NCBI GenBank assembly: GCA_003193925.1
Contig: PSPG01000021.1
Coordinates: 1-7,403, forward strand
Source: Candidatus Thalassarchaeum betae
GTDB taxonomy: Archaea; Thermoplasmatota; Poseidoniia; Poseidoniales; Thalassarchaeaceae
DNA length: 7,403 nt
Direction: 5' to 3'
Position numbers and translations under genes: made by a program. Each line of letters starts with the position of its first letter. Position 1 is the first letter of the stretch. Under the pieces are notes generated by a model. That model was given only the letters and a program-made list of their open reading frames with translations, did not search any database and was not told the DNA's origin. Positions 2 through 7,403 of this stretch are shown in pieces.

Positions 2-271
2 GTAGAGAATCATCCCGATGCTGATACGTTGTATGTAGTTCAGATAGAAGACGGTCCGAATTCTAAAAGAACAGTGTGCGCGGGATTAAAGAAATTCTAT
101 AATATTGAGGAACTGATTGGGATGTCAATCATCTTTGTAGCGAATCTCAAACCTAGGAAACTACGAGGCGTTGTATCAGAAGGGATGATGTTGGCAGCTG
201 AGGACTCGGAAGGAAATGTCAGATTATTGACACCTGACGGCGATCTAGCACCGGGGTCAATCGTTCGGTGA
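2..271 (+). CDS. metG: Methionyl-tRNA synthetase-type C-terminal tRNA-binding domain (3' end of gene, partial)
   Basis: The reading frame is open from the left edge (codons begin at base 2) to a TGA at 269-271, so the 5' part of the gene lies outside the window. The 89 visible codons carry the hallmarks of the EMAP-II/Trbp111-like OB fold: a HPDADTLYVVQIEDG segment at the start, an AGLKKFY segment, NLKPRKLRGVVSEGM in the middle and LLTPDGDLAPGSIV at the end. This fold is found at the C-terminus of MetRS, or as a stand-alone MetRS beta subunit, where it binds the outer corner of tRNA. The visible end matches the usual C-terminal boundary of the domain. I cannot tell whether the catalytic MetRS domain is fused upstream; a stand-alone CsaA/Trbp-like protein is the main alternative. 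A TTG at 29 could be called as a start but would cut the conserved HPDAD motif. The last 15 bases overlap the 3' end of the convergent tsr3 gene. Confidence 0.85.
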   Translation, partial: VENHPDADTLYVVQIEDGPNSKRTVCAGLKKFYNIEELIGMSIIFVANLKPRKLRGVVSEGMMLAAEDSEGNVRLLTPDGDLAPGSIVR

Positions 272-805
272 GTCCTCTGGCTTGTCGAAGAATTCCCATT
301 GTAAATCAGCAAGTTGCTGGTTGGTTTCTGCACCAGAATATGCTTCCAGAGGCTCCTTGTTCAATGTGAAGAATTGTTCACCAAATTTGAATGGGCGTAG
401 TACTTGTCGGGCTTGCTTGAAATGGCCTAGGACGAATAATGAGGTGGCGAAAGCCTCAACATTTGATAATCTCCCGGGTTTTCCCCAAGATACCGGATTA
501 GCGGCGAGAACAATCGGTAGTGTTCTCCCTTTCAATCTTGTTTTGTTATTAAGAAATTTGACCGAATCCTCCAACTGTTTCCATGAACAATCGAGACCTA
601 CCAAACATCCACCCCTTGAGAATTCACCAGCATCATCAGGACCTAGAATTCGACCACTGAGTGGATTCAGCAGAATACCCCTCCTGGGCGTATGACGAAT
701 ATCGTGATGTAGTTCAGTCAAACCATGCCGTGCCATTTTTCTGGAGGTACACTTCTGTGGATCATCCTGACTGAGGTGAATTACGTGAAGAGGAATGTCT
801 TCCAA
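257..805 (-). CDS. tsr3: Tsr3, 16S rRNA aminocarboxypropyltransferase
   Basis: The 182-residue product matches the archaeal/eukaryotic Tsr3 family (RLI-like N-terminal domain plus DUF367). This enzyme moves the 3-amino-3-carboxypropyl group of S-adenosylmethionine onto a modified uridine in helix 31 of small-subunit rRNA. Visible family motifs are DDPQKCTSRKMARHGL (residues 14-29), LDCSW (71-75), LPIVLAANPV followed by SWGKPGRLSNVEAFA (96-120) and FKFGEQFFTLN (139-149). The length is normal for an archaeal Tsr3. The start is a TTG at 803-805: the first internal ATG (residue 24) lies inside the conserved motif, and a strong GGAGGG sits six bases upstream of the TTG. The gene begins one base after the stop of the upstream mbf1-like gene, so the two are very probably one transcript with coupled translation. 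Its 3' end overlaps the convergent MetRS-domain gene by 15 bases. The family call is secure; the exact modified nucleotide is inferred from the family. Confidence 0.93.
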   Translation of the reverse strand: MEDIPLHVIHLSQDDPQKCTSRKMARHGLTELHHDIRHTPRRGILLNPLSGRILGPDDAGEFSRGGCLVGLDCSWKQLEDSVKFLNNKTRLKGRTLPIVLAANPVSWGKPGRLSNVEAFATSLFVLGHFKQARQVLRPFKFGEQFFTLNKEPLEAYSGAETNQQLADLQWEFFDKPEDSPND

Positions 806-806
806 C

Positions 807-1307
807 TCAGTCCCTCCGAGACAACAGATCGTCGTAAAGATCGCCTATTGTCATGGATCTGAATCCAGTGCCAGTCACTTGACGTGTTTCATTGACCTGT
901 ACATCGATGAATAATTCGATGCTCAAAACCTTCTCGATTTTTTTGATTAAGGCGTCCGATGGACGATTGCCATTCTCAACACGTTGCACGCTATTCAGTC
1001 GTTCATTCATTCTACGAGCAAATTCACGTTGGTCCCAGTCACGTTTCTCGCGAGCTGAACGGATTCTCTGACCGAAATCAAGAGCGAGCTCCTTCTCATT
1101 CTTAGCCATGATATCGCGACCCGGACGATTCGGTTTAGGATTGTTTGAAGTAAAAATTTGTCTTGAATCGGTGGATTTGATCGGAGTCAGGGTTGTCAAT
1201 CCTAACCGATCTATACATCTCCTGCAAACGTCAACAACTGCACCTGATGCTTTAGCACGATTCACAACTACTTTGTCGGTGCCACACAACTCACAAGTGC
1301 CCATCAT
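807..1307 (-). CDS. mbf1: Archaeal MBF1-like zinc-ribbon / Cro-C1 HTH protein
   Basis: With the start used here the product is 166 residues. The N-terminus holds a zinc ribbon with two CxxC pairs (C5/C8 in CELCG and C28/C31 in CRRC). A basic linker follows, then a Cro/C1-type helix-turn-helix at about residues 79-133 (core REFARRMNERLNSVQRVENG), and a short tail of about 30 residues. This is the architecture of archaeal multiprotein bridging factor 1, a conserved helix-turn-helix protein related to eukaryotic MBF1; archaeal members have been linked to the small ribosomal subunit as well as to transcription. The start is uncertain. I chose the ATG-ATG pair at 1302-1307 because archaeal MBF1 proteins begin just before the first CxxC. 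The frame also stays open to ATGs at 1329-1334 and a TTG at 1359-1361, which would add 9-18 non-conserved residues; none has a convincing SD. The gene precedes tsr3 by one base and is divergent from pan. Confidence 0.85.
   Translation of the reverse strand: MMGTCELCGTDKVVVNRAKASGAVVDVCRRCIDRLGLTTLTPIKSTDSRQIFTSNNPKPNRPGRDIMAKNEKELALDFGQRIRSAREKRDWDQREFARRMNERLNSVQRVENGNRPSDALIKKIEKVLSIELFIDVQVNETRQVTGTGFRSMTIGDLYDDLLSRRD
812..817 (-). promoter_or_regulatory. Shine-Dalgarno sequence for tsr3
   Basis: On the minus strand the bases read GGAGGG, a near-perfect match to the 16S anti-SD, with six bases between it and the TTG start of tsr3. It lies inside the last codons of the upstream mbf1-like gene. 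This decides the unusual TTG start. Confidence 0.8.
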
Positions 1308-1382
1308 ATCACCGAACACATCCCTTGCCATCATGTCTTCGGGCCACAAGTGTGAAATCAATCGGAGTTATGGCGAATCTGT

Positions 1383-2615
1383 ATGAGTGATTCACAAGCC
1401 GAAGGCCCAGCCGACCAAGGTAGGGTAGGGAAAAAGTCGACGACATTGGTTTCATTGGACTCTTTACAACGACAATTTAACGAATTGAATAATACGGCTC
1501 AACAGATGCTGACTGAAAAACTGTTTCTGGAGAACGAATGCAATCAATTGAAGAAGAAAGCAAATCGTCTAGATGAAGAAATTCGCAATTTGAAAACACC
1601 ACCGTTGGTTGTAGGCAATATTCAGGATGTATCTGGAGATGATGTCATAGTACGGAGTTCGAATGGTACAGTATTCTTGGTTTCAGTCAACAAGAGGATA
1701 GATCCAGAGCTCCTCGTAGCCGGTGCCCGAGTCTCATTGAACCAAGACACCTTATCAATCATCGATGTTCTTGTTGATTCTTGGGATCCACTTGTTGTTG
1801 CATCAGAAGTAATCGAAAAACCCATTGTGACTTACGCCGACATCGGAGGGGTTGATCAGCAGATCAAGGATTTGATACAATCTGTCGAACTACCACTTCT
1901 AAATCCCGAGGCTTTCAAGAAAATGGGTATTGAACCCCCTAAAGGAGTTCTTCTGACTGGCCCGCCAGGTACTGGAAAAACCATGTTGGCGAAAGCCGTC
2001 GCCAACTCTACATCAGCCACATTTCTTGGAATGGTAGGGTCAGAATTAGCACAGAAATACATTGGAGAAGGCGGTCGATTGGTAAGGGAATTGTTCGATC
2101 TCGCCCGTCAGAGGGCGCCTGCAATAATTTTCATCGATGAAATAGATGCCATCGGATCCAAGCGACTTGACTCCTCGACATCAGGTGATAGAGAGGTTCA
2201 ACGCACTCTGATGCAATTGCTGGCCGAAATGGATGGCTTCAATTCTTTAGAGAATGTCAAAATCATAGCGGCGACAAATCGGCCGGAACTGCTCGATAGA
2301 GCTCTACTGAGGCCAGGAAGATTCGATCGTGTCATCGACGTGGGTCTACCTGATTTAGCCGGACGCACCCACATTTTGGCTATTTTGACTAAAGATGTAC
2401 CACTTGATTCGAAAATTGATTTAGCAGGTTTCGCTCGGAAGACTGAAGGGTTCACTGGCGCCGAATTGAAGGCTCTAATTATAGAATCAGGGATGGCGGC
2501 CATTGAAGCCGGAGCCAACAAAGTAGAATTGAAACATCTCAGTGCTGGCCATTCCAGAATAGTCAAGAATAGGAAAGATCCACTCTATGGTGTCCCCGAA
2601 GCACTGTATGGATGA
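1383..2615 (+). CDS. pan: Proteasome-activating nucleotidase (PAN), AAA+ ATPase
   Basis: PAN is the archaeal homologue of the 26S proteasome Rpt subunits: a hexameric ATPase that unfolds proteins and threads them into the 20S core. The 410-residue product shows the full layout. An N-terminal coiled coil spans about residues 25-71, followed by a PPLVVG turn and an OB domain (about 73-132). The AAA+ module has Walker A GPPGTGKT (193-200), pore loop YIG (226-228), Walker B IIFIDEID (248-255), sensor-1 N299 and arginine fingers in LLRPGRFDR (R310, R313). The C-terminal helical lid ends in Leu-Tyr-Gly, the HbYX motif that docks into 20S alpha-ring pockets. All key residues are present, so the protein should be active. 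The ATG at 1383 gives a normal N-terminus; no good SD precedes it (GGAG at 1364-1367 is 15 bases away). It is divergent from mbf1 and is followed after about 40 bases by the histidine-degradation genes. Confidence 0.96.
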   Translation: MSDSQAEGPADQGRVGKKSTTLVSLDSLQRQFNELNNTAQQMLTEKLFLENECNQLKKKANRLDEEIRNLKTPPLVVGNIQDVSGDDVIVRSSNGTVFLVSVNKRIDPELLVAGARVSLNQDTLSIIDVLVDSWDPLVVASEVIEKPIVTYADIGGVDQQIKDLIQSVELPLLNPEAFKKMGIEPPKGVLLTGPPGTGKTMLAKAVANSTSATFLGMVGSELAQKYIGEGGRLVRELFDLARQRAPAIIFIDEIDAIGSKRLDSSTSGDREVQRTLMQLLAEMDGFNSLENVKIIAATNRPELLDRALLRPGRFDRVIDVGLPDLAGRTHILAILTKDVPLDSKIDLAGFARKTEGFTGAELKALIIESGMAAIEAGANKVELKHLSAGHSRIVKNRKDPLYGVPEALYG

Positions 2616-2617
2616 AC

Positions 2618-2622
2618 ATAAT
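2618..2622 (+). promoter_or_regulatory. Possible TATA-like box upstream of the formimidoyltransferase gene
   Basis: An ATAAT pentamer lies just after the pan stop codon and 32 bases before the ATG at 2655, which has no Shine-Dalgarno. The position would suit an archaeal TATA box driving a leaderless or short-leader transcript. The match is short and A+T-rich pentamers are common, so this is only a candidate. Confidence 0.25.
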
Positions 2623-2654
2623 GCTCATCAGCAACCCGATTGTGGCAAACGCTG

Positions 2655-3692
2655 ATGGCTCCGCGCTGGATTGAATGTGTTCCCAATATAAGTGAGGGTC
2701 AGGATCTATCCATCGTCGATACCATAGTATCCTCGATTTCCGAACTAGAAGGCGTTGCAGTTCTTGGCGCAGAACCTGATCCTGACTACAATCGGACGGT
2801 CATCACAATCGCCGGCGAATACCTAGCTGTGGCAAAAGCAGCTATCATATTGATTGAATCCACGGCGCTGAATATCGATATGCGCCAACATACAGGTAAT
2901 CACCCACGAATGGGCGCAGTAGACGTTTGCCCCTTCGTGCCTATCAGTTCGGGAACCGAAGCAGATTGTATCCTGGCTTCAAACATCGTCTCTGACCATT
3001 TCAAAGGCTCTATTACAATCTACAAATATGGTTTGATTGCCAGTAACCAAGATCGAGCATCTCTTGCTAATCTCCGTAAAGGACAGTATGAGGGACTGAA
3101 ATCAAGATTGACAGGGGGCGAATGGACTGATGAATCCACGAGAATGCCCGATTCGTGGTCTGGGGTCTGGGGAGAATCCGAAGAACGGTTCGGGGCTTTA
3201 TCTATTGGCGTTCGGCCAGTCTTGATTGCTTACAATGTCAATGTGGATGAACCTGTACCGGTTGCATCCAAAGCCGCAGGATCGATAATACGAACCAGTG
3301 GACGAGTAATAACGAATTCAAGAGGGGAGAAACTGCGATTCAATGGTATGTTATCCTCAGTACAAGGAATGGCAGTTCCATTACCTAATCATGGAATATG
3401 TCAGGTATCGATGAATCTACAGGATTACCGTATGACGCCGATGCATCACGCGTTCGAGTTGATAGAGTCAATCTGTGGTGATCATGGGGTATCTGTGAAA
3501 GGAAGTGAATTAGTCGGCTTGGTACCTCTTCAGGCGATTCTAGATTCAGGGGCTTGGTACACGGACGATGAAGACGCTGACGACGACGACCTGGTTCAGG
3601 CCGCTATTATGGGTCTTGGTCTGGATACCTTGGATGAATTCAACCCAGAGGGTCGTATAATCGAATGGGCTATTGAGCGGAAACTTGGGTGA
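2655..3692 (+). CDS. ftcD: Glutamate formimidoyltransferase (FTCD N-terminal-type)
   Basis: This enzyme moves the formimino group of N-formimino-L-glutamate, the end product of the urocanate branch of histidine breakdown, to tetrahydrofolate and releases glutamate. The 345-residue product matches the formiminotransferase half of animal FTCD from end to end. It has the N-terminal WIECVPNISEG, PDPDYNRTVITIAG, the signature HTGNHPRMGAVDVCPFVP with the probable catalytic His83 (equivalent to pig FTCD His82), and near the C-terminus ELVGLVPLQAILD and the closing LGLDTLDEFNPEGRIIEW. An acidic run (DDEDADDDD, residues 304-312) sits where the family has a variable loop. The ATG at 2655 was chosen because family members start a few residues before ECVPN. 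An in-frame TTG at 2640 would add five residues and has no SD. Its TGA is separated by four bases from the cyclodeaminase start, so the two activities are separate but adjacent genes. It may also be cotranscribed with pan upstream. Confidence 0.94.
   Translation: MAPRWIECVPNISEGQDLSIVDTIVSSISELEGVAVLGAEPDPDYNRTVITIAGEYLAVAKAAIILIESTALNIDMRQHTGNHPRMGAVDVCPFVPISSGTEADCILASNIVSDHFKGSITIYKYGLIASNQDRASLANLRKGQYEGLKSRLTGGEWTDESTRMPDSWSGVWGESEERFGALSIGVRPVLIAYNVNVDEPVPVASKAAGSIIRTSGRVITNSRGEKLRFNGMLSSVQGMAVPLPNHGICQVSMNLQDYRMTPMHHAFELIESICGDHGVSVKGSELVGLVPLQAILDSGAWYTDDEDADDDDLVQAAIMGLGLDTLDEFNPEGRIIEWAIERKLG
3688..3692 (+). promoter_or_regulatory. Shine-Dalgarno-like GGTGA before the cyclodeaminase start
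   Basis: GGTGA overlaps the stop codon of the formimidoyltransferase gene and lies four bases before the ATG at 3697. It supports that start over an in-frame TTG at 3673 and suggests translational coupling. Confidence 0.5.
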
Positions 3693-3696
3693 ACAC

Positions 3697-4282
3697 ATGA
3701 ATGATGGGTATCTGAAGATATTGCAGTCAATATCATCGTCTACTCCTACTCCTGGTGGAGGAGCAGTCGCTGCATTATCATTAGCTCATGCTATCTCTCT
3801 GGCCCGAATGGTTGCACGGTTGACAGAAGGGAAGGAGAAATGGCTTACGGGCCACCAAGCAGCTAATACCTTACTCGAGAAGACCGACGGCCAACTCGAA
3901 TTAACGTTGGAATTAGCAAGGTTGGATTGTGAAGCATTTCACAGAGTAATGGAATCTTACCGATTACCGAAGAGCACATCATCTGAGATTGAATTTAGAA
4001 GACAATCCATTCATCAAGCTAATTTAGGAGCTACTGAATCACCGTTACATGCGTCTATTACCTCTTCTTGCAGATACTTGTAACTCGAATGCAATCACCG
4101 ACCTCGGGGCAGCCTCCATCATGGCTCATTCAGCTATCAGAATCGGAGCATTGAACGTACAAATCAACCTAGGGAGCATAGGGAATCGAGCTACTGAATT
4201 CCAGATTAACACACAGAACATGTGTGCAGAGGCTGACGGACTTGCAGACCGACTCGCGAGTGTAGTTTCCAATAGGATGTGA
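3697..4282 (+). pseudogene. fchA: Formimidoyltetrahydrofolate cyclodeaminase, frameshifted
   Basis: The family converts 5-formimino-THF to 5,10-methenyl-THF and ammonia, completing transfer of the histidine C1 unit. The first frame (from the ATG at 3697) gives the N-terminal helical part with the signature TPTPGGGAVAALSLAHAISL, MVARLTEGK, then LDCEAFHRVMESYRLP and IHQANLGATESPL. After about base 4047 homology leaves this frame, which runs into a TAA at 4081-4083 after a non-conserved tail. The match resumes in the next frame from about 4049 with MRLLPLLADTCNSNAITD, LGAASIMAHSAI and ALNVQINLGSI, ending at TGA 4280-4282. The joined protein would be about 194 residues against a usual 200-210. 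The junction is some 8-9 residues short, consistent with a deletion of 3n+2 bases (about 20-26). As written, no full-length enzyme is made unless a +1 shift occurs. Assembly error, a true inactivating deletion, or (less likely) programmed frameshifting could explain it. The family assignment of both halves is firm; the functional status is not. Confidence 0.85.
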
Positions 4283-4283
4283 T

Positions 4284-4288
4284 ATAAT
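4284..4288 (+). promoter_or_regulatory. Possible TATA-like box upstream of hutU
   Basis: The sequence GATATAATC overlaps the end of the cyclodeaminase gene; its ATAAT core ends 28 bases before the hutU ATG at 4317. hutU has no Shine-Dalgarno, so an internal promoter giving a leaderless or short-leader mRNA is plausible. The evidence is one A+T-rich motif at a suitable distance. Confidence 0.35.
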
Positions 4289-4316
4289 CGACAACTCAAC
4301 TTTCTCAGAACAGATT

Positions 4317-6317
4317 ATGATGGGCATTCCTTCTGAATTACCAACTCTGAGTCACAAGGACCCTAACGTCGATCACGCTCCTAAACGTCCGCATGTTCTG
4401 AATACCCAGGAAGAAACACTAGCGGTAGAGAACGCTCTCAGATATTTCAAATCTGAATGGCACCCTATTCTAGGTCCGGAATTCATGGAAGAATTACGCT
4501 CTGAGGGTCATATCACAATGCGTCGTTTTCGTCCAGAATATGCGATGTATGCCAGGCCGATTGAAGCATACCCTGCACAATCTCTGCAGGCTGCGGGAAT
4601 CATGTTGATGATTCAAAATAATCTTGATCCGGACATCGCCCAATTCCCGCATGAACTGATCACATATGGCGGGAATGGATCAGTCTTCCAGAATTGGGCT
4701 CAATACCTATTGACCATGTCCTACCTTTCTCAAATGAATGACCAACAGACACTTGTCTTGTATTCTGGCCATCCTCTGGGTCTGTTTCCTTCGAATTCTC
4801 AATCTCCGAGGGTCGTAATCACCAATGGTATTGTCATTCCAAACCACTCATCGCAAGAGGATTATGAGAAATTCAATGCTCTAGGCGTGTCTCAGTATGG
4901 CCAGATGACGGCTGGGTCTTTCATGTACATCGGACCCCAGGGTATCGTCCACGGTACCACCATTACATTGTTGAATGCAGCAAGAAAGTATCTCTCTTTA
5001 TCTAACGAAGATAACTTGTCAGGTATCCTCTATGTGACTTCAGGATTAGGAGGTATGTCCGGTGCGCAAGCCAAGGCTGCTGTCATCACCGGAGCAGTTG
5101 CAGTCATTGCTGAAACCAACCCTCTAGCAGCACACAAACGATACGAACAGGGCTGGTTGTCAGAATTGTATCAAGACCTCGATGAAGTCATCAACCGCGT
5201 TGAATCTGCGGTAACAAAGGAAGAAGCGGTTTCTATAGGATATATCGGAAACATCGTTGATTTGTTGGTAGCTTTGGACGAATCAGATGTCATTCCCGAT
5301 TTAGGTAGTGATCAGACAAGTCTCCATAATCCGTTGTTAGGTGGTTACATTCCCGTGGGTTATACGCATTCACAAGCTTTGCATCTGCTCCAGTCTGACC
5401 CAAAAAGATTCAAGAGTGAAGTTCAGAGTTCTCTCAGAAAACACGTCAAAGCAGTGAATAATCTTGTCAAGAAAGGTATGAATTTCTGGGATTACGGCAA
5501 TGCATTCCTCCTTGAGTCTAGTAAAGCTGGAGCGGAAATCATGGATCCCGAAAACACCGGTCGTTTCCGTTACCCTTCATATGTTGAGGACATAATGGGG
5601 CCAATATGTTTCGATCATGGATTTGGGCCATTCAGGTGGGTATGTTCTTCGGGTTCTCACAAGGACCTAGTCCTGAGCGATGCAATCGCTGCATCAGTTC
5701 TTCGTGAACAATTACACAATGCTGAACCCGACATTCAAGGACAGATTCTCGATAACATCCAATGGATCGAAGAGGCAGAACGACACGATCTCGTGGTTGG
5801 TAGTCAGGCTAGAATTCTCTATGCTGATGCAATTGGTAGACAAAGTATCGCTGAAGGTTTCAACGAAGCAATAGCCAGCGGTAAGATCACCGCGCCTATC
5901 ATTCTTGGTCGAGACCACCACGATGTCTCCGGAACCGACAGTCCCTATCGAGAAACTGCCGACATTCGAGATGGTTCGATGTACACTGCAGATATGGCGG
6001 TGCAAAATTTTGTTGGTGACGCTTTTCGAGGAGCAACTTGGGTAAGTCTTCACAACGGGGGCGGTGTCGGTTGGGGTGAAGTGATGAATGGGGGTTTCGG
6101 TATGGTCATAGATGGTTCAGAATCTTCATTGGACAGAATTCGTTCAATGCTCAGTTGGGATGTCAACAACGGCATTGCCAGACGATCATGGGGGCGAAAT
6201 ATAGGGGCGATTAAGTCAATTAAACGTAGTATGGAAATTGACTCCGATCTAATCGTTACGATACCACACCTCGTCGATTCTAACTTGTTATCGTCATTGA
6301 ATTCGGAATCATCATGA
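4317..6317 (+). CDS. hutU: Urocanate hydratase, long (about 670-residue) form
   Basis: HutU (urocanase) hydrates urocanate to 4-imidazolone-5-propanoate using tightly bound NAD+ as an electrophile. The 666-residue product contains the family landmarks: ITYGGNGSVFQNWAQY (about 115-130), YSGHPLGLFP (149-158), GIVHGTTITLLNAARKY (209-225), the NAD-site loop TSGLGGMSGAQAKAA (241-255), WDYGNAF (391-397), and PICFDHGFGPFRWV (429-442). Cys431 in the last motif corresponds to the conserved active-site cysteine (Cys410 in Pseudomonas). GRDHHDVSG (531-539) and LHNGGGVGWGEVMNGG (578-593) close the enzyme. Typical bacterial HutU is about 555 residues. This length, and MSGAQAKAA in place of the bacterial MGGAQPLA, match the longer type known from animals and some bacteria. 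Two ATGs in tandem (4317, 4320) can start it; neither has an SD. It follows the cyclodeaminase stop by 34 bases and precedes hutH by 30. Confidence 0.96.
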   Translation: MMGIPSELPTLSHKDPNVDHAPKRPHVLNTQEETLAVENALRYFKSEWHPILGPEFMEELRSEGHITMRRFRPEYAMYARPIEAYPAQSLQAAGIMLMIQNNLDPDIAQFPHELITYGGNGSVFQNWAQYLLTMSYLSQMNDQQTLVLYSGHPLGLFPSNSQSPRVVITNGIVIPNHSSQEDYEKFNALGVSQYGQMTAGSFMYIGPQGIVHGTTITLLNAARKYLSLSNEDNLSGILYVTSGLGGMSGAQAKAAVITGAVAVIAETNPLAAHKRYEQGWLSELYQDLDEVINRVESAVTKEEAVSIGYIGNIVDLLVALDESDVIPDLGSDQTSLHNPLLGGYIPVGYTHSQALHLLQSDPKRFKSEVQSSLRKHVKAVNNLVKKGMNFWDYGNAFLLESSKAGAEIMDPENTGRFRYPSYVEDIMGPICFDHGFGPFRWVCSSGSHKDLVLSDAIAASVLREQLHNAEPDIQGQILDNIQWIEEAERHDLVVGSQARILYADAIGRQSIAEGFNEAIASGKITAPIILGRDHHDVSGTDSPYRETADIRDGSMYTADMAVQNFVGDAFRGATWVSLHNGGGVGWGEVMNGGFGMVIDGSESSLDRIRSMLSWDVNNGIARRSWGRNIGAIKSIKRSMEIDSDLIVTIPHLVDSNLLSSLNSESS

Positions 6318-6332
6318 TTGAAAGGGTTTGGG

Positions 6333-6340
6333 GGAGTGGG
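6333..6340 (+). promoter_or_regulatory. Candidate ribosome binding site for hutH
   Basis: A G-rich stretch in the 30-base hutU-hutH gap contains GGAG followed by TGGG. The GGAG ends 11 bases before the hutH ATG, slightly far for an ideal SD but usable. It supports the 6348 start and coupled expression with hutU. Confidence 0.4.
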
Positions 6341-6347
6341 ATGAATC

Positions 6348-7403
6348 ATGTCTGATGTGTCTGTTCTTCTGGATGGAGCAACCCTGACCACAGAACAACT
6401 CATCGCTATCAGAAATGGCGTGGCAAGTGTTTCGATTTCTGATGCAGCGTCTGAAAGAGTTCGCAGGTCCCGAAACGCGGTTGAATCAATCCTTTCATCT
6501 GGTGATGTGGTATATGGAATCAATACTGGTTTCGGTGCACTTTCGACTATTACGATCGACGAGTCGAAATTAGCGAAATTACAAACAAATCTGATTAGAA
6601 GTCATGCATGTGGAGTAGGGGAAAACATGGCTTCGGAAGATGTCTTGATGATGATGACCATCAGAGCGAATAGCCTTGCAGTAGGACATTCAGGTATTCG
6701 CCTTTCAGTGATACAAACAATTGTTGATTTGGTTAATTCCAGATGCGCACCGGTAGTACCTCGAATCGGCTCTTTGGGTGCCTCTGGCGATTTAGCTCCC
6801 CTTTCACATCTGACTCTGGGTTTGATGGGGGAAAATCAATTCTTCATCGAAATTGATGGAATCTGGGAGCTTAAGGATGCCGACTATGTCTTTGAATTGA
6901 TTGAATCTGATCCAGTCGAACTACAAGCCAAAGAGGGACTTTCTCTAATCAATGGGACCAGTCAGATGTGTGCTTACATGGTTGGTGTTCTCCATACCTT
7001 GAGCCATTTAATTGTGGCAGCGGATTCGGCCTTGAGTTGCTCTCTGGAGGCGATCAAGGGTTCACATCGTGCATTCGATGTCAGAATTCATCGTGCTAGA
7101 CCGCATTCCGGGCAACAGATTTCAGCTGCAAGAGTTCGCTCTTTGGTGAACGACTCTCAAATCAATGCCTCACATGAGGACTGTGACAGAGTTCAGGATT
7201 CTTACTCTTTCAGATGTGGACCTCAAGTTCATGGCCCCGTAATCGAATTGATTTTGAATACAAAGAAAATGATAGAAATAGAAATTAATTCCGCCACTGA
7301 TAATCCGTTGATTTTCGTGGCAGATGATGGAGAATTCGAAGTCATCAGTGGAGGTAACTTTCATGGCCAGATCATTGCACTGGCCGCAGATTCTCTTGCC
7401 GTG
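6348..7403 (+). CDS. hutH: Histidine ammonia-lyase (5' part, open at right edge)
   Basis: HutH removes ammonia from L-histidine to give urocanate, the first step of the pathway whose later enzymes are encoded just upstream. The frame runs without a stop from the ATG at 6348 to the window edge, giving 352 residues of an expected total near 500. The ATG is well fixed, because an in-frame TGA lies at 6342-6344. Residues seen: the active-site tyrosine in VVYGINTGFGAL (Tyr56), SHACG (His86), the MIO-forming triad Ala145-Ser146-Gly147 in GSLGASGDLAPLSHL, LINGT (Asn202), and RVQDSYSFRCGPQVHG (281-296), which carries substrate-site Tyr and Arg. ATDNPL and GGNFHG follow near the edge. The ASG triad and LINGT fit the HAL/PAL superfamily; His86 in SHACG favours histidine over aromatic ammonia-lyase specificity, as does the operon. 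The missing C-terminal part includes the catalytic glutamate, so integrity of the whole enzyme cannot be judged here. Confidence 0.95.
   Translation, partial: MSDVSVLLDGATLTTEQLIAIRNGVASVSISDAASERVRRSRNAVESILSSGDVVYGINTGFGALSTITIDESKLAKLQTNLIRSHACGVGENMASEDVLMMMTIRANSLAVGHSGIRLSVIQTIVDLVNSRCAPVVPRIGSLGASGDLAPLSHLTLGLMGENQFFIEIDGIWELKDADYVFELIESDPVELQAKEGLSLINGTSQMCAYMVGVLHTLSHLIVAADSALSCSLEAIKGSHRAFDVRIHRARPHSGQQISAARVRSLVNDSQINASHEDCDRVQDSYSFRCGPQVHGPVIELILNTKKMIEIEINSATDNPLIFVADDGEFEVISGGNFHGQIIALAADSLAV

Follow-up and report, generated by a model that had tools for sequence, protein, structure and literature searches.

Gene content and the interrupted cyclodeaminase

The DNA analyzed here, called the window below, is the whole of G000:C22, a short contig of 7403 bp assigned to genome G000. 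From left to right it carries the end of a methionyl-tRNA synthetase (MetRS) gene, genes for a Tsr3-like protein, an MBF1-like HTH protein, a proteasome-activating ATPase and formiminotransferase, a split cyclodeaminase gene, and genes for urocanase and histidine ammonia-lyase. The individual features, with domain assignments from Pfam where the family is named, are as follows.

2..271, + strand: methionyl-tRNA synthetase, C-terminal end, truncated where the contig begins; shares 67% identity with the end of a MetRS-like ORF in L037 (G000:C19)
257..805, - strand: ribosome biogenesis protein, Tsr3-like (RLI-type Fer4 and Ribo_biogen_C; Pfam), intact
807..1361, - strand: HTH protein, MBF1-like (Pfam), intact
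1383..2615, + strand: proteasome-activating AAA ATPase (Pfam), intact
2655..3692, + strand: glutamate formiminotransferase (FTCD_N and FTCD; Pfam), intact
3697..4047, + strand: 5' part of the cyclodeaminase (FTCD_C, fchA-like), frame 1; FTCD_C profile positions 5-115, E=1.3e-27; 97% amino acid identity to G064
3940..4047, + strand: second-haplotype patch, holding 9 of the 11 mismatches to G064
4047..4048, + strand: joint at which 26 bases present in G064 (AGAATCATATCAGAGGCATTGGATTT) are missing; all bases to the right are identical to G064
4048..4083, + strand: frame 1 continuing out of frame to its TAA stop (ORF reading)
4049..4282, + strand: 3' part of the cyclodeaminase, in a shifted frame; FTCD_C profile positions 125-178, E=2.2e-9; identical to G064
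4317..6317, + strand: urocanase HutU (Pfam), intact
6348..7403, + strand: histidine ammonia-lyase HutH (Pfam), cut by the contig end

Frame 1 of the cyclodeaminase starts at 3697 and encodes FTCD_C sequence through the residues E-S-P-L (4036-4047), after which it continues as the non-family stretch HASITSSCRYL until it meets the TAA at 4081-4083. Family sequence is picked up again in another frame, which runs from ATG 4049 (MRLLPLLADTCNSNA...) to TGA 4280-4282. A preliminary description of this DNA had placed the frame split after ESPL and the return of family sequence at 4049, and the ORFs and the order of the two Pfam profile matches confirm this. It had also pointed out, correctly, that TAA ends frame 1 only, TGA being the stop codon of every other gene whose end lies in the window. 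Both pieces score above the curated cutoff of FTCD_C (PF04961; 24.5 bits), with 97.2 bits and 37.7 bits, respectively, and the domain, split at 4047/4048, has no single open frame across it in the window. Intact FTCD_C sequences score 150 bits (G064) and 159 bits (G000:C19).

In the window, the Pro codon at 4042 and the first Asn codon at 4082 are 40 bases apart. Among 31 intact family members, 30 have 66 bases here (22 codons) and the remaining one has 69 (23 codons), so that none of these aligned relatives has a shortened interval. The earlier estimate, 40 bases against about 66 in the family, was thus exact, and the near-identical G064 has 26 extra bases here. As had been proposed, the shortfall is out of frame, and it takes out about nine residues that every intact aligned relative has. 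A search of 40 genomes for other split FTCD_C sequences found none; one short match (G023) sits at a contig start.

An FTCD_C match is absent from 9 of the 40 relatives (G002, G004-G007, G009, G010, G014, and G020), 7 of which belong to genus g1, the genus to which G000 is assigned. G005, one of the nine, is 97% complete. The hut cluster could have been truly lost in part of genus g1.

Origin of the contig

A DNA search against 148 genomes of the family gave a single near-identical match, G064 (MAG UBA58, marine group II archaea), which is placed in another genus of the same family as G000; the next best match was 69% identical. When window bases 2-7403 are aligned to G064:C18 (99% identical), 11 bases differ and there is a single gap, of 26 bases. 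Of the window proteins, complete or partial, seven show 100% identity to their G064 counterparts, and only the 5' FTCD_C piece differs (97%). The FTCD_C gene of G064 is one open frame of 203 amino acids.

The preliminary description had advised looking for a second fchA copy elsewhere in the genome, and an intact one exists. Contig G000:C19 (174,862 bp) carries the same eight genes as the window in the same order, encoding proteins 48-68% identical to those of the window, with the intact cyclodeaminase at 62803-63309. The G+C content is 0.459 in the window, 0.466 in G064, and 0.519 in the C19 region of G000. As a contig of G000, C22 is therefore neither a unique locus nor typical in composition: it has a syntenic copy on C19, its G+C content is unlike that of the C19 region, and it matches another genus over its full length. 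With all eight genes present on C19 in matching order, C22 would duplicate an ancestral locus. A second paralogous cluster in G000 was considered and ruled out by the synteny, which includes the housekeeping neighbors, and by the end-to-end match to G064. Because of the full-length near-identity to G064 and the second complete syntenic cluster in G000, C22 is almost surely a contig of the UBA58 (G064) species that was misbinned into G000.

Two further observations concern the regions downstream of the clusters. In L037 (G000:C19), ORFs at 12285-13649 and 10991-11722 were seen by eye to resemble imidazolonepropionase (HutI, - strand) and an AlaX-like alanyl-tRNA editing protein, respectively, and a Kae1-like protein, also recognized by eye, comes after them. 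The HutI-like ORF, if this visual assignment is right, would complete the histidine pathway on G000:C19. In G064, about 80 bases (L069:4100-4185) match several places in G000 at 80-96% and are a tRNA-gene-like candidate.

A patch of mismatches beside the gap

The mismatches between the window and G064 are not spread evenly. Nine of the 11 (3940, 3996, 4008, 4011, 4016, 4020, 4026, 4035, and 4047) are packed into 108 bases directly left of the gap, and the only ones outside this patch, at 10 and 88, both lie less than 90 bases from the contig start. On the right of the gap the two sequences agree at all 3,356 bases. When 11 changes were placed at random 200,000 times, no group of nine spanned fewer than 853 bases, and a span of 108 was never reached. 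Concentration at the joint of mismatches to a near-identical assembly, here 9 of 11 within 108 bases, is the pattern expected of an assembly-made chimeric joint. At the patch's right end the codon ending at 4047 is TTA in the window and TTC in G064; we counted this mismatch with the left side, which places the missing AGAATCATATCAGAGGCATTGGATTT between 4047 and 4048. The haplotype switch and the deletion coincide within about three bases. The two sides of the gap in G064, as read by eye at the joint, have only a few bases in common.

Seven of the nine patch mismatches fall on third codon positions (binomial P of 0.008). With this bias, the patch looks like a real second haplotype and not like read errors, and sequencing error is an unlikely source of the mismatches. 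The pattern suggests that the patch is the functional allele of a second strain under coding constraint. No sister-species donor of the patch was found among the loci compared other than G064, which match it only in short stretches, up to about 82%. A contig scan for a second carrier of the gap allele returned the UBA58 record and two distant relatives, none of them a carrier.

How the joint may have arisen

The preliminary description had left it open whether the deletion was real, in a decaying gene, or a fault of assembly or consensus. The evidence favors the fault, and the decaying gene finds no support, the gene of the source species being intact in G064. Judging from the sequence comparisons, we consider it probable that the 26 bases were lost during assembly or consensus building at a strain-switch joint in a misbinned contig of the UBA58 species. 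The contig consensus would run in the main haplotype and enter that of the second strain at 3940-4047, and on returning to the main strain at 4047/4048 it would have lost the 26 bases through assembly, scaffold closing, or contig merging. That the switch and the deletion fall at one point is what would be left if two contig ends had been wrongly joined or a scaffold gap badly closed. With so few bases shared at the joint, simple k-mer collapse does not account for it, and scaffold closing or contig merging must be supposed. Our inference is that software, and not an event in a cell, created the joint. Since the cyclodeaminase of the source species is intact, the frame break is no sign of a dead gene, and the broken cyclodeaminase is most likely not a real feature.

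The strongest competing explanation, to which we give a clearly smaller chance, is that a sub-strain of the G064 species really lost the 26 bases, the contig being misbinned in this case too. A short stretch of another strain's DNA would have recombined there through homology at one end and an illegitimate joint at the other, deleting the 26 bases and inactivating the cyclodeaminase of that sub-strain. The few shared bases are what an illegitimate joint would have, which counts somewhat for such an event, or at least against k-mer collapse, and the real-looking coding variation reaches right up to the joint. However, two unusual events would be required at one place in a contig that is otherwise nearly identical to G064, the rest of the contig's gene set shows no difference from G064 and no further sign of decay, and neither the 31 aligned relatives nor the 40 searched genomes offer a second shortened or split gene. 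It is therefore unlikely, on balance, that a UBA58 sub-strain lost its cyclodeaminase by one-sided illegitimate recombination with sister-strain DNA while the rest of its histidine pathway stayed intact.

It is very improbable that C22 is a genuine G000 contig, carrying a second hut cluster that was transferred from the G064 species and is now decaying. Binning did place it in G000, for which the estimated contamination is only 0.81%, but its housekeeping neighbors (MetRS and the proteasomal ATPase) are ordered as on C19, its G+C content is that of G064, and it matches G064 from end to end with no junction to G000 sequence. Programmed frameshifting, or re-initiation at the ATG that begins the second frame, can practically be dismissed as a means of expressing the split gene: G064 reads through the site in one open frame with no frameshift required, ATG 4049 simply encodes one of the Met residues of the intact protein, and bases have been lost and not merely shifted, so that a protein made by frameshifting would still lack about nine residues.

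Implications and comparison with known systems

The faulty joint that we favor bears on how the pathway is read. It had been suggested that, if the deletion were real, 5-formimino-THF would need another route; this falls away with the intact cyclodeaminase in the complete cluster on G000:C19 and with that of the source species, G064. No alternative route is called for when the assigned genome and the source species both have the enzyme in a representative assembly. A pathway gap deduced from C22 would be wrong, as G000 has an intact copy elsewhere. The case is also a caution that a seemingly dead gene in an environmental assembly may lie on a misbinned contig and be broken at a strain-switch joint.

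Compared with the stand-alone FTCD_C protein (PF04961, fchA-like) of marine group II hut clusters, the two window pieces match the same profile in order, but the window copy is 26 bases short inside the gene and has no single frame; the intact allele of G064 is an ordinary FTCD_C member (150 bits). The window resembles the strain-switch (chimeric) joints of metagenome contigs in two respects: a short patch of second-strain mismatches ends exactly at an indel, and the rest of the contig is nearly identical to another assembly.
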